DNA from: Corallococcus carmarthensis
GTDB lineage: Bacteria > Myxococcota > Myxococcia > Myxococcales > Myxococcaceae
NCBI RefSeq assembly: GCF_003611695.1
Contig: NZ_RAWE01000042.1
Location: 1 to 59,047, forward strand
Reading direction: 5' to 3'
DNA: 59,047 nucleotides
A program made the position numbers and the translations under genes. Shown here in pieces: positions 34,005 to 37,326 of the stretch (the first letter of the stretch is position 1; each line of letters starts with the position of its first letter). Under the pieces are notes generated by a model. The model saw only the letters and a program-made list of their open reading frames with translations. It was not told the DNA's origin and did no database searches.

Positions 34005-36176
34005 ATGACCCGTATCCGTTTTCACGGCCTGCTGGCCGCGCTCGCGCTTGCGTGCGCTTCAGCCTGTGCCCCCGAAGCACCGTCTTCCATTGACGCTCCC
34101 ACCAGCTCCGCCGCGCGCCTCGACACGTCCTCCTGGAGCAGCGCCGGCACCATGGCCTCCGTGCGCGTGGACGCCACCGCCACGCTCTTGCGCAATGGCT
34201 ATGTGCTTGTCGCGGGCGGAGGGACGTCCGCCGCGGAGCTGTATGATCCGCGCACCGGCCGCTGGTTCTCATTGAGCGCCATGGCCACGAGCCGCCAGCG
34301 CCACACCGCGACGCTGCTGACCTCCGGCAAGGTGCTGGTGGTGGGCGGCGGCACCTCCGTGCTGGCCGCGGGCGGCGCGGAGCTGTTCGACCCGGACACC
34401 AACAGCTGGTCCGCCGTGACGGGACTGGACGTGCCCCGCTCGCAGCACACCGCGACGCTGCTGCCGGATGGCCGGGTGCTGGTGGTGGGCGGCGACAGCG
34501 GCGCCGGTAATGCGCTGGCCACTTCTCTCCTGTTCACCCCCGCGACCAACACGTGGGCAGTCACCGGGCGGATGGTCGCGGCCCGCCTGGGCCACTCGGC
34601 GACGCTGCTGCCGGATGGTCAGGTGCTGGTGGTGGGCGGCCGGGACAGCGCCAACGGGAACGTGCTCGCGACGGCGGAGCGTTATGACCCCATGACGGGC
34701 GAGTGGACGGCGGTGGGCAACATGACCACGCAGCGCAACGGGCACACGGCGACGCTGCTCCTGTCCGGACAGGTGCTGGTGTCAGGCGGCTTCTCGGGCA
34801 GCCTCGCCACGGACACCACGGAGCTGTTCGACCCGGGCACCGGCACCTGGACGTCCCAGGGTTTGTTGCCGTTCCTTTGCGTCTTCCACACCGCGACGCT
34901 GCTCACCTCCGGGCAGGTGCTGGTGACGGGGGGATCCACGGGCGGACAGCCGTACCTGGACCGCGCCGCGCTCTACAGTCCGGCCACCGGCGTCTGGACG
35001 GAGACGGCGGCCATGGCCACGCGCCGCATCAGCCACGCCGCCGCGCTGCTGCCTTCGGGCGACGTGCTCGTGCTGGGCGGCGTGCCCCAGGCGGGCTCGC
35101 GCAATGCGTCCGCGGAGCGCTACCGGCCGTCCCTCCTGCCGTGGAGCCCGGCCGCGAGCCTCGTCACCGCGCGCTCGCAGCTCAGCGCCACCCGGCTGAA
35201 CACGGGCGACGTGCTGGTGGCGGGCGGTGCGTCCTCCTCCGGGACCGCGCTGTCGAGCGCGGTGCTGTACGACGAGGTGACGAACACCTGGCGGGACACC
35301 GCCGCGCTGGGCACCGCGCGCTTCCTGCACGGCGCCACGACGCTGACGGACGGCCGCGTGCTGGTGAGCGGCGGGCAGCAGGATGCCTCCACCTGGCTGT
35401 CCGCCACGGAGGTGTACGCGCCCGCCACGGGGACCTGGACGCCGGTGGGCGCCTTGGGGACGGGGCGGTCCCGTCACACCGCGACGGTGCTGAGCTCCGG
35501 CAAGGTGCTGGTGACGGGCGGCGCGTCGGGCGCGAGCACCTCCGCCACGCTCGCGAGCGCGGAGCTGTTCAATCCGGCCACGGGCACCTGGAGCCCCACG
35601 GGCGCCATGGGGCACGCGCGCACGTACCACGCGGCGGTGCCGCTGCCTTCGGGCGAGGTGCTGGTGATGGGCGGCAGCTCCACCGGGACGGACGCCGTCA
35701 CCACGAGCGCGGAGCTGTATGACCCGGCCACGGGCACGTGGCGGCCCACGGCGTCCATGGCGGTGGCGCGCTACGGCCACATCGCGGTGCCGCTGGGCAA
35801 TGGCAGCCAGGTGCTGGTGGCGGGCGGCTGGGGCGTGGATGGACCGCTGCGCTCGGCGGAGCTCTACGACGTGGCGCGCGGCACCTGGAAGACCGTGGCG
35901 TCCATGAACATGCCGCGCTACCTGGCGCACGCCACGGTGCTGTCCACGGGCCGCGTGCTGGTGGTGACGGGAGAGGGCGGCACGGGGCTGGGCGTGCTCG
36001 ATTCGGCGGAGGTGTATGACGCCGCGATGAACGCGTGGACGTCCGCGGGCATCCTGTCCACGCGCAACACGCACCACGGGCTGGCCCTGCTGCCTTCCGG
36101 GCGCGTGCTCGTCGCGGGCGGCAGCGGAAGCGGCGGCGCGCGCGTGGCCGCCGACCTGTACTCACCAGCGCCTTGA
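34005..36176 (+). CDS. Kelch-like repeat outer-surface lipoprotein
   Basis: A 723-residue exported protein. The signal peptide has Cys residues at its end (LAALALACASACAPEA), so it is probably a lipoprotein. The mature protein consists almost wholly of about 14 repeats of about 50 residues, each with HTATLLxxGxVLVxGG followed by AELYDPxTGxWxxxxxM, the kelch/galactose-oxidase-like beta-propeller pattern. Fourteen units could build two seven-blade propellers. Proteins of this type are abundant on myxobacterial surfaces and probably bind carbohydrate or protein; no enzymatic residues are evident. The start ATG has a weak ribosome-binding site. Confidence 0.9.
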   Translation: MTRIRFHGLLAALALACASACAPEAPSSIDAPTSSAARLDTSSWSSAGTMASVRVDATATLLRNGYVLVAGGGTSAAELYDPRTGRWFSLSAMATSRQRHTATLLTSGKVLVVGGGTSVLAAGGAELFDPDTNSWSAVTGLDVPRSQHTATLLPDGRVLVVGGDSGAGNALATSLLFTPATNTWAVTGRMVAARLGHSATLLPDGQVLVVGGRDSANGNVLATAERYDPMTGEWTAVGNMTTQRNGHTATLLLSGQVLVSGGFSGSLATDTTELFDPGTGTWTSQGLLPFLCVFHTATLLTSGQVLVTGGSTGGQPYLDRAALYSPATGVWTETAAMATRRISHAAALLPSGDVLVLGGVPQAGSRNASAERYRPSLLPWSPAASLVTARSQLSATRLNTGDVLVAGGASSSGTALSSAVLYDEVTNTWRDTAALGTARFLHGATTLTDGRVLVSGGQQDASTWLSATEVYAPATGTWTPVGALGTGRSRHTATVLSSGKVLVTGGASGASTSATLASAELFNPATGTWSPTGAMGHARTYHAAVPLPSGEVLVMGGSSTGTDAVTTSAELYDPATGTWRPTASMAVARYGHIAVPLGNGSQVLVAGGWGVDGPLRSAELYDVARGTWKTVASMNMPRYLAHATVLSTGRVLVVTGEGGTGLGVLDSAEVYDAAMNAWTSAGILSTRNTHHGLALLPSGRVLVAGGSGSGGARVAADLYSPAP

Positions 36177-36250: not shown

Positions 36251-37156
36251 TCAGGCCCCCGCGTGCGGCGCTTCGTGCCCCGCGTCTTCGCGGGCGTAGT
36301 ACGCGAGGCATTCATCCTCGCGCCCGCGCACCACGCGTCTGCCATTGAGCGGCCCGGCGTGGGCGGTCACCACGGTGTACTGGCCTTCGACGTCGTCCTG
36401 GTCGAAGTAGATGACCACCCAGTCGTCCGTGGCCTCCTGCTGGTGCGCCAGCGCCGTGTTGGAGAACAGCGCGCGGAAGTTCCAGTCGTTCACGTGCTCG
36501 CGCATCACCGGCAGCCACGCCTCGCCGGATGGGTTGAAGCGCTTGGGTGCGATGCGGCGCAGTTCTCCTGCGTCCGCCCTCCGCCGGTAGTCCGCGTCCA
36601 CCCGCAGCAGCAGCGCCACCGAAGGCCGCGGCCCGTCCTCGCCCCCGTGCGTTCGCGCCCGCTCGCGCTCCCGCCGGTTGCGCCCCAGCCGTGCCGCCAG
36701 CACCTCGCGCACCTGCTCCGCGCGCCGGGGCCCGAAGCCCTCCACCCGCTCCAGGCGCCCGTCATGCGCGGCCAGCTCCAGCGCCTCCAGCGTCGTGATG
36801 TCCAGCGCCGCGTGGATGCGCTTCGCCAGCTCCTCGCCAATGCCGGGCACGCTGGCGAGCAGGCCCTCGGGGGATGATTCACCCTCCAGCCGCTCGAGCA
36901 GCGCCATCCTTCCCGTGCGCACCAGCTCCGCGACCGCCGCCGCGATGCTCTTGCCCACGCCGGGCAGCTCCCTCAAGCCCGCCTCGCCCTCCGCCACCAG
37001 CACCTGCGCCACGGAGTCCGGCCAGTTCGCGATGGTCGCCGCCGCCTTGCGGTAGGCCCCCACGCGGAAGGGCATCGCGTCCTGCGTGTCCAGCAGGTCC
37101 GCCACCCGTTCCAGCGCGTCCGCGATGTCGATGTTGCTCTTCCATTCGACGCCCAT
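36251..37156 (-). CDS. PolX-like N-terminal/helix-hairpin-helix protein without polymerase palm
   Basis: A 301-residue protein whose first about 165 residues match the 8-kDa and fingers-type helix-hairpin-helix region of family X DNA polymerases: IADALERVADLLDTQDAMPF, then HhH segments LRELPGVGKSIAAAVAEL, LLASVPGIGEELAKRIHAAL and LERVEGFGPRRAEQVREVL. The nucleotidyltransferase palm (GSxxR, paired Asp) and PHP domain do not follow. Instead a charged linker (RNRRERERARTH) leads to a domain of about 110 residues with FNPSGEAWLPVMREHVNDWN and VIYFDQDDVEGQYTVV that I cannot name. It should bind DNA without polymerising. ATG 37156 opens the conserved part. Confidence 0.78.
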   Translation of the reverse strand: MGVEWKSNIDIADALERVADLLDTQDAMPFRVGAYRKAAATIANWPDSVAQVLVAEGEAGLRELPGVGKSIAAAVAELVRTGRMALLERLEGESSPEGLLASVPGIGEELAKRIHAALDITTLEALELAAHDGRLERVEGFGPRRAEQVREVLAARLGRNRRERERARTHGGEDGPRPSVALLLRVDADYRRRADAGELRRIAPKRFNPSGEAWLPVMREHVNDWNFRALFSNTALAHQQEATDDWVVIYFDQDDVEGQYTVVTAHAGPLNGRRVVRGREDECLAYYAREDAGHEAPHAGA

Positions 37157-37326
37157 GATACCTGGAAGGTAGGGGCTCCCCGGGAGGACGGCCACCCCGT
37201 GGGCCGACACCCGCGCACATGGCGTCACGCGCGGAGAAAAATTCCCCGCCCCGCAACCACGCCGCGCCCGCCGGGTTGGAATGGACAGCAGGCAGTCACG
37301 CGAACCTTTCGACCTGGAGAATGACG

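Follow-up and report, generated by a model that had tools for sequence, protein, structure and literature searches.

Bacterial family X DNA polymerases (PolX) have been described as PolX1, PolX2 and PolX-like proteins (PMC12926913). The PolX-like proteins lack the polymerase and a portion of the 8-kDa domain, keep the PHP domain, and occur almost only in Actinobacteria (PMC12926913). PolXs with an altered palm but a conserved PHP domain are covered by PMC9226535. Both papers, in their available portions, argue that end processing, more than synthesis, may be where bacterial PolX is important. The architecture analyzed herein, a PolX N-terminal module followed by an orphan C-terminal domain, is absent from the PolX kinds set out in those portions, and no description of it was found in a literature search that covered mostly papers available outside subscription.

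The window, which is the whole analyzed stretch of 59,047 nucleotides of Corallococcus carmarthensis DNA, comes from an assembly of 10.8 Mb in 530 contigs. The open reading frame (ORF) runs on the minus strand from an ATG at 37156 to the stop codon at 36251-36253 and encodes 301 amino acids. An in-frame alternative GTG start at 37228 would give a longer ORF. The gene and its parts are listed below.

36251..37156, minus strand: complete gene for a PolX N-module plus an orphan C-terminal domain, 301 aa and stop, as given by the ORF, the translation, and relatives of like length and architecture.
36686..37135, minus strand: PolX-type 8-kDa domain plus helix-hairpin-helix (HhH) module with PGVGK (aa 65-69), PGIGE (aa 104-108) and EGFGP (aa 139-143), aa 8-157, as given by Pfam, the PolX match and hhalign.
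36629..36685, minus strand: charged linker of lower confidence, aa 158-176, as given by pLDDT.
36284..36628, minus strand: orphan C-terminal domain, aa 177-291, as given by the AlphaFold model and conservation, without a PDB or BFVD fold match at E<=0.001.

The first-pass annotation had read the protein as a PolX-like DNA-binding module fused to an unknown domain that replaces the polymerase. This reading was borne out by Pfam, the PolX match, structure comparison and hhalign. Pfam HHH_8 was matched at aa 8-83 (E 3.1e-21) and HHH_5 at aa 99-153 (E 4.3e-12), the PolX of T. thermophilus was matched over aa 11-162 (E 3.5e-21), and hhalign of the N-module against 14 PolXs gave a probability of 99.9% (E 5.4e-33). 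Structure comparison of the AlphaFold N-part by VIA gave Z 16.7 against T. thermophilus PolX, with 155 aligned residues and 34% identity, and Z 12.7 against the 8-kDa domain of Pol beta, with an rmsd of 1.5 over 81 residues. The rmsd listed for the T. thermophilus PolX superposition is 11.8 to 11.9 A, and this high value suggests that the sub-lobes are placed differently in the model. The NCBIfam PolX model was matched over its positions 6-148 of 571 only. NCBIfam PRK07945, which we take to represent the actinobacterial PolX-like proteins, was matched at aa 11-97 only, with 39.2 bits against a cut-off of 250.

Residue equivalences were determined by alignment with Pol beta and were counted over 62 rows, which comprise the window protein and relatives from genome_contigs only. 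Lys35 of Pol beta corresponds to Arg31 (62/62 rows), Tyr39 to Tyr35 (57/62), Lys68 to position 70 (Gly in 58 rows, Ser in 4), and Lys72 to Ala74 of the window protein, where the rows show A 44, S 15, V 2 and T 1. Lys72 is taken by us to be the Schiff-base nucleophile of the dRP/AP lyase, and the roles of Lys35, Tyr39 and Lys68 are likewise assumed from the Pol beta literature. Since Arg31 and Tyr35 are kept and a Lys at the Lys72 position is absent, the sequence makes a grip by the N-module on the phosphate side plausible and a classical dRP lyase of the Pol beta type not plausible. The D. radiodurans PolX also lacks Lys at this position in the alignment; the full-length PolX of the window genome carries it, as read from its sequence. 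The DNA-end or gap binding that the first-pass annotation had suggested would follow from the homology of the N-module, the conserved GxG hairpins, and Arg31 and Tyr35.

The C-terminal domain had been called unrecognized at the outset, and after profile searches and structure prediction it stayed so: no significant match was found in Pfam, NCBIfam, PHROG or PDB at the sensitivity used, with aa 177-291 of the window protein matching no family of the first three. AlphaFold prediction of the whole protein with 62 sequences gave a mean pLDDT of 90.0, with means of 79 (aa 151-160), 55 (161-170) and 78 (171-180) across the linker region. The model's pTM of 0.56 over the whole protein suggests that it does not settle how the N- and C-halves sit relative to each other. 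When modeled alone, the C-domain gave a pLDDT of 90.2 and a pTM of 0.81, and its predicted topology is helix, strands, short helix, strands, helix. Foldseek searching of this domain against PDB found nothing at E<=0.001 (best E 0.32), and comparison of the fold with BFVD likewise found nothing at E<=0.001. The best Z in the VIA comparison was 4.1 (DUF155, top row) and the best E in the sequence-profile search of PDB was 0.22, both of which were taken as noise. The predicted fold is unmatched at this sensitivity, which does not by itself prove that it is new.

All 62 C-domains were also scanned. Scattered weak rows were found in Pfam (best 0.013, Leukocidin in 2 sequences; EutN_CcmL in 4) and in NCBIfam (xanthine phosphoribosyltransferase, 0.011, in 1; Dsr1 in 3), and these are read as chance matches; no family model for the C-domain was found by these scans. 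The PADLOC defence models gave 0 families at E<=1. The absence of the catalytic palm and PHP domains, which had been noticed at first reading, was upheld by the lack of any palm or PHP match in Pfam, by the lack of a PHP match in NCBIfam, and by hhalign of the C-domain profile with full-length PolX (probability 0.15%, E 0.4, 26 columns). Derivation of the C-domain from a PolX palm, thumb or PHP remnant was considered and rejected: no hhalign comparison, whether with 14 PolXs or with 110-residue segments, clearly exceeded the reversed controls, with a best forward score of 15.4 versus a best reversed score of 14.7. The stretch W225-L240 loosely resembles what we take to be the thumb motif of Pol beta.

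Distribution of the C-domain was determined in genomes and in contig collections. Within the window's class 48 of 147 genomes have it, and all 48 belong to f1, the family group of the window; in the phylum it is present in 49 of 195 genomes, one of which holds a 29-residue fragment only. It was also found in 8 of 289 sampled genomes of the class of G158, a genome with a Mesorhizobium locus and so of the Alphaproteobacteria. Two peptide patterns matched 353 stretches of genome_contigs, 300 of which encode a relative; among the best 80 of these 300, 79 are proteobacterial by record title and one is an Acidobacteriota MAG (L109). A Gemmatirosa plasmid also carries the short protein. RefSeq relatives such as WP_114889252.1 and WP_275027434.1 are named "helix-hairpin-helix domain-containing protein". 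A viral or phage origin was rejected, since the 5 viral_contigs stretches that matched a pattern encode no relative and the matches in 7 phage records are limited to the N-part (40-50% of the query, at 25.7-30.1%).

The two parts travel together. The C-domain and the N-module lie in the same ORF in 154 of 156 C-domain ORFs (duplicate genomes included), and the two unpaired ORFs are those of L045, where the contig ends, and L120, where the frame is broken. Beyond this count, a truncated C-domain remnant was observed on a Cupriavidus plasmid (L180:4788-5168), flanked by genes for nicotinate phosphoribosyltransferase and for FtsH, universal stress protein and phosphoribosyltransferase.

Phylogenetic analysis of the N-modules was performed with 102 rows, leaving out partial or split loci (L040, L045, L101, L120), duplicates, most of L006-L033, and the PolX L172 with its short N-module. 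In this midpoint-rooted tree, which contains several long rows including L041 and one PolX, 88 short proteins lie on one side of a branch and 13 PolXs on the other, with support of 100/100. Because the N-modules form one clade, the simplest history would be a single origin in which palm, thumb and PHP were lost and the orphan domain was gained. A Paracoccaceae plasmid protein (L041:1582-2556) carries the same PolX N-module fused to a CBS pair, presumably an adenosyl-ligand module, and falls among the alphaproteobacterial members of the short-protein clade. This nesting suggests that a CBS pair replaced the C-domain on one occasion.

Conservation was measured on the same 62 rows, which omit the four partial or split loci named above, duplicates, most of L006-L033 and some near-duplicates. 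Positions conserved in at least 97% of rows number 33 of 115 in the C-domain versus 18 of 160 in the N-module, a comparison inflated in favor of the C-domain, because C-domain similarity governed both the retrieval and the ranking of the rows, with search patterns at aa 199-219. When the 11 conserved columns at aa 199-219 are removed, 22 C-domain positions remain. A less biased check came from L034-L039, which the full-length query had retrieved: when these and the window are compared pairwise, similarity is higher in the C-domain than in the N-module for 17 of 21 pairs. The C-domain is thus at least as strongly conserved as the N-module. Its conserved polar and aromatic positions include D187, Y190, R206, N208, W214, S232, N233, H238, W246, E257, T261, R274, R277 and E280.

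Selection was estimated by comparison with six genomes of the window's family, for which dN/dS is 0.15-0.51 in the N-part and 0.14-0.39 in the C-part; a seventh, distant pair (L034) gave 0.81 and 0.54. Neither half is consistently slower among near relatives, with dN for N and C of 0.052 and 0.155 for L017. Both halves are under purifying selection, and this selection together with the wide recurrence of the architecture indicates that the feature is not an artefact.

Gene neighborhoods were compared over 88 loci, made up of the best 80 of the 300 genome_contigs relatives plus L034-L041. A PRPP/NAD-salvage gene (prs, phosphoribosyltransferase or NAD-salvage) lies near the short gene in 18 of the 88, and none of the six PRPP/NAD queries was found nearby in 70. 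Counts of individual neighbors were prs 10, universal stress protein (large) 8, ATP synthase beta-type 7, RtcB 4, archease 4, pncB 3 and beta-CASP 2. Poisson estimates, which assume 5-Mb genomes and 1-1.5 gene copies, suggest an enrichment of RtcB, prs and pncB. The 14 full-length PolX loci of family-bearing genomes, used as controls, gave pncB 4, beta-CASP 3, prs 1 and RtcB 0, so that pncB and beta-CASP are commoner beside full-length PolX (4/14 and 3/14) than beside the short gene (3/88 and 2/88). Since the control loci share pncB and prs, the association is read as a stress-island habitat common to the short protein and full-length PolX, not as a link private to the short protein. A conserved operon partner was sought and rejected: no general one was found among the 88 loci, in which ORFs were picked roughly in GC-rich DNA.

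Several neighborhoods deserve description in their own right. RtcB and archease, both of RNA repair, are encoded no more than about 8 kb from the short gene in L058, L093, L095 and L102, which are beta- and gammaproteobacterial contigs. A gene related to APH/AAA_33 is near the short gene in nine loci (L038, L039, L052, L075, L102, L103, L111, L113 and L116); in eight of them a ribose-phosphate pyrophosphokinase gene is present as well. Full-length PolX is near nicotinate phosphoribosyltransferase in L169, L170, L171 and L173 (Burkholderia/Cupriavidus), and the L171 locus additionally holds prs, an APH-like gene and a universal stress protein. In the window, the flanks are a Kelch-type protein, a lipoprotein, a RidA-like and an RF3-like protein, all named by reading; in six relatives of the same family the Kelch-type gene recurs in 4, the RF3-like in 4, the RidA-like in 3 and the lipoprotein in 1. 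The gene adjoining the short gene (34005-36176) encodes a 723-aa protein with many "VLVAGG"-type repeats, Kelch-like by reading. These neighbors point to no function.

Expression data were found for Burkholderia cenocepacia H111 under micro-oxia versus air, in RNA-Seq with a cut-off of p<0.2 and with proteome values given as "nd" (PMC3759415, available portion). BCAM1258, a "putative DNA polymerase family X", was 18.5-fold up; BCAM1259, an RpoD-related sigma factor, was 26.4-fold up, and BCAM1257, a MerR protein, was seen in micro-oxia only. BCAM1352, a "DNA-dependent DNA polymerase family X", was 27.2-fold up and the adjoining BCAM1351, a "DnaK suppressor protein", 16.2-fold. The record L181, from another strain of the species, has the short gene flanked by genes for a sigma-70 factor and a MerR protein, and L169, from a related Burkholderia, has a DksA-type gene next to full-length PolX. 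Because the gene order in these two records matches, the short protein very probably corresponds to BCAM1258 and the full-length PolX to BCAM1352. The N- and C-parts of the short gene in L181 (6344-7288) are in different reading frames, and its C-domain has diverged.

The relation to full-length PolX and Ku was examined in the genomes that carry the family. In the window's own genome, where comparison with PolX had been proposed, full-length PolX is a separate gene (G000:C33). Full-length PolX over the curated cut-off is present in 14 of 26 family-bearing genomes; in the other 12, some of which are MAGs or incomplete assemblies, it was not found over that cut-off, and these 12 include Methylobacter tundripaludum SV96 (G155) and a Mesorhizobium. 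Of 21 family-bearing genomes, 8 (38%) have Ku. This share is close to the 37-46.5% of PolX genomes reported to have NHEJ, versus 24.9% of genomes without PolX (PMC9226535, available portion). A strict dependence on Ku or NHEJ was rejected, as Ku is present in just those 8 of 21.

Taken together, we consider the protein to be a stress-induced, PolX-derived, non-polymerase accessory of DNA repair that binds gaps and 5'-phosphate ends, with a probability of roughly 0.6. As its counterparts in PolX and Pol beta do, the N-module would most likely hold short gaps, nicks or DNA ends by their 5'-phosphate side. The C-domain may supply a second function, as an effector or by binding a ligand, through a candidate polar site of D187, Y190, R206, N208, S232, N233, H238, E257, T261, R274, R277 and E280, which could be catalytic, ligand-sensing or a docking surface. 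The protein, patchily spread, would be used in stress or low-oxygen survival, beside or instead of full-length PolX. A bolder version is tentative and in our judgement has less than an even chance: a previously undescribed domain, possibly of a new fold and with its own active or ligand site, replaced the polymerase and PHP on a PolX chassis and produced a protein for stress-induced processing or sensing of DNA gaps and ends, which spread across proteobacteria, the window's lineage and beyond.

What the C-domain does can be read in several ways. It could be a new type of enzyme acting on DNA ends, such as a nuclease, a 3'-end cleaner or a phosphodiesterase, and so do the job that PHP does in PolX. 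The dense invariant polar set including H238, E257, R274, R277 and E280 and the position of the domain C-terminal to a DNA-binding module are in keeping with an enzyme, as are the reports that, of its functions, PolX1 conserves the PHP exonuclease better (PMC12926913, available portion) and that noncanonical PolXs act as exonucleases (PMC9226535, available portion). However, no known nuclease family or fold was recognized in the C-domain searches, and the set of nine His/Asp residues of PHP given in the available portion of PMC6616362 was not seen in the domain; we regard an end-acting enzyme as somewhat unlikely. A sensor of nucleotides or NAD-related ligands that controls DNA binding by the N-module is more doubtful still. 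It fits the replacement of the C-domain by a CBS pair in L041 and the PRPP/NAD genes near 18 of the 88 loci, but this replacement was seen in a single protein with a long branch, no nucleotide-binding family was recognized, and the PolX control loci are also near pncB (4/14) and prs (1/14), so that these neighbors need not be specific.

In the model the strands lead into a C-terminal helix, and the VIA list includes several PUR-alpha rows; both recall a PUR/Whirly-like fold that would bind single-stranded nucleic acid and work with the N-module on gaps. Those rows reach a Z of at most 3.9, under the stated noise level of the tool, the best Foldseek E is 0.32, and no PUR family is among the listed Pfam rows, which makes such a fold improbable; the PUR-like DUF3276 was not found in 193 phylum genomes. 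A docking role, or one not foreseen here, takes the share of probability that these three roles leave. Decay of PolX into a functionless fragment could be argued from the patchy distribution (8 of 289 genomes in the class of G158), the frame-broken copies (L120, L181) and the remnant (L180). It is contradicted by purifying selection on both halves, by one clade that extends across phyla with a C-domain not recognizably from PolX, and by the reported low-oxygen induction (PMC3759415, available portion), and it is highly improbable.

The repair-accessory reading makes this family a natural experiment on the end-processing idea, in which the gap-binding module was kept, both known catalytic domains were dropped and a conserved domain was added. 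The 12 of 26 family-bearing genomes without a full-length PolX over the cut-off leave the short protein open to study without its paralogue. Proteins so far named only for their helix-hairpin-helix domain gain a testable role and a domain worth solving. Beyond the first-pass annotation, the wide occurrence of the architecture, the single N-module clade and the joint travel of the domains are new, as is the reported induction in low oxygen of one relative, identified by gene order (PMC3759415, available portion).

Compared with the known kinds, the short protein shares with PolX1 the N-terminal module of 8-kDa domain and HhH, and some PolX genes lie in similar stress-type neighborhoods; both proteins, identified by gene order, are listed as up in B. 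cenocepacia micro-oxia (PMC3759415, available portion). It differs from PolX1 in having no palm, thumb or PHP, in its unmatched C-terminal domain and in its separate N-module clade; the lyase-lysine position is also not Lys, a trait found in D. radiodurans PolX as well. The actinobacterial PolX-like proteins are likewise PolX relatives without the polymerase region that keep part of the 8-kDa domain, but PHP is kept there, whereas in the short protein PHP is absent and the orphan domain present, and the short protein is found in proteobacteria and the window's lineage. PolX2, a further PolX relative, likewise lacks PHP and carries an additional domain at its C-terminus, but it keeps the polymerase and lacks the N-module, the opposite of the short protein, and its additional domain is alpha-helical (PMC12926913, available portion). 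The RefSeq "helix-hairpin-helix domain-containing protein" entries are the same family under an automatic name that reflects the N-module alone. The short protein is best placed as a PolX-derived variant beside PolX1, PolX2 and the actinobacterial PolX-like proteins.
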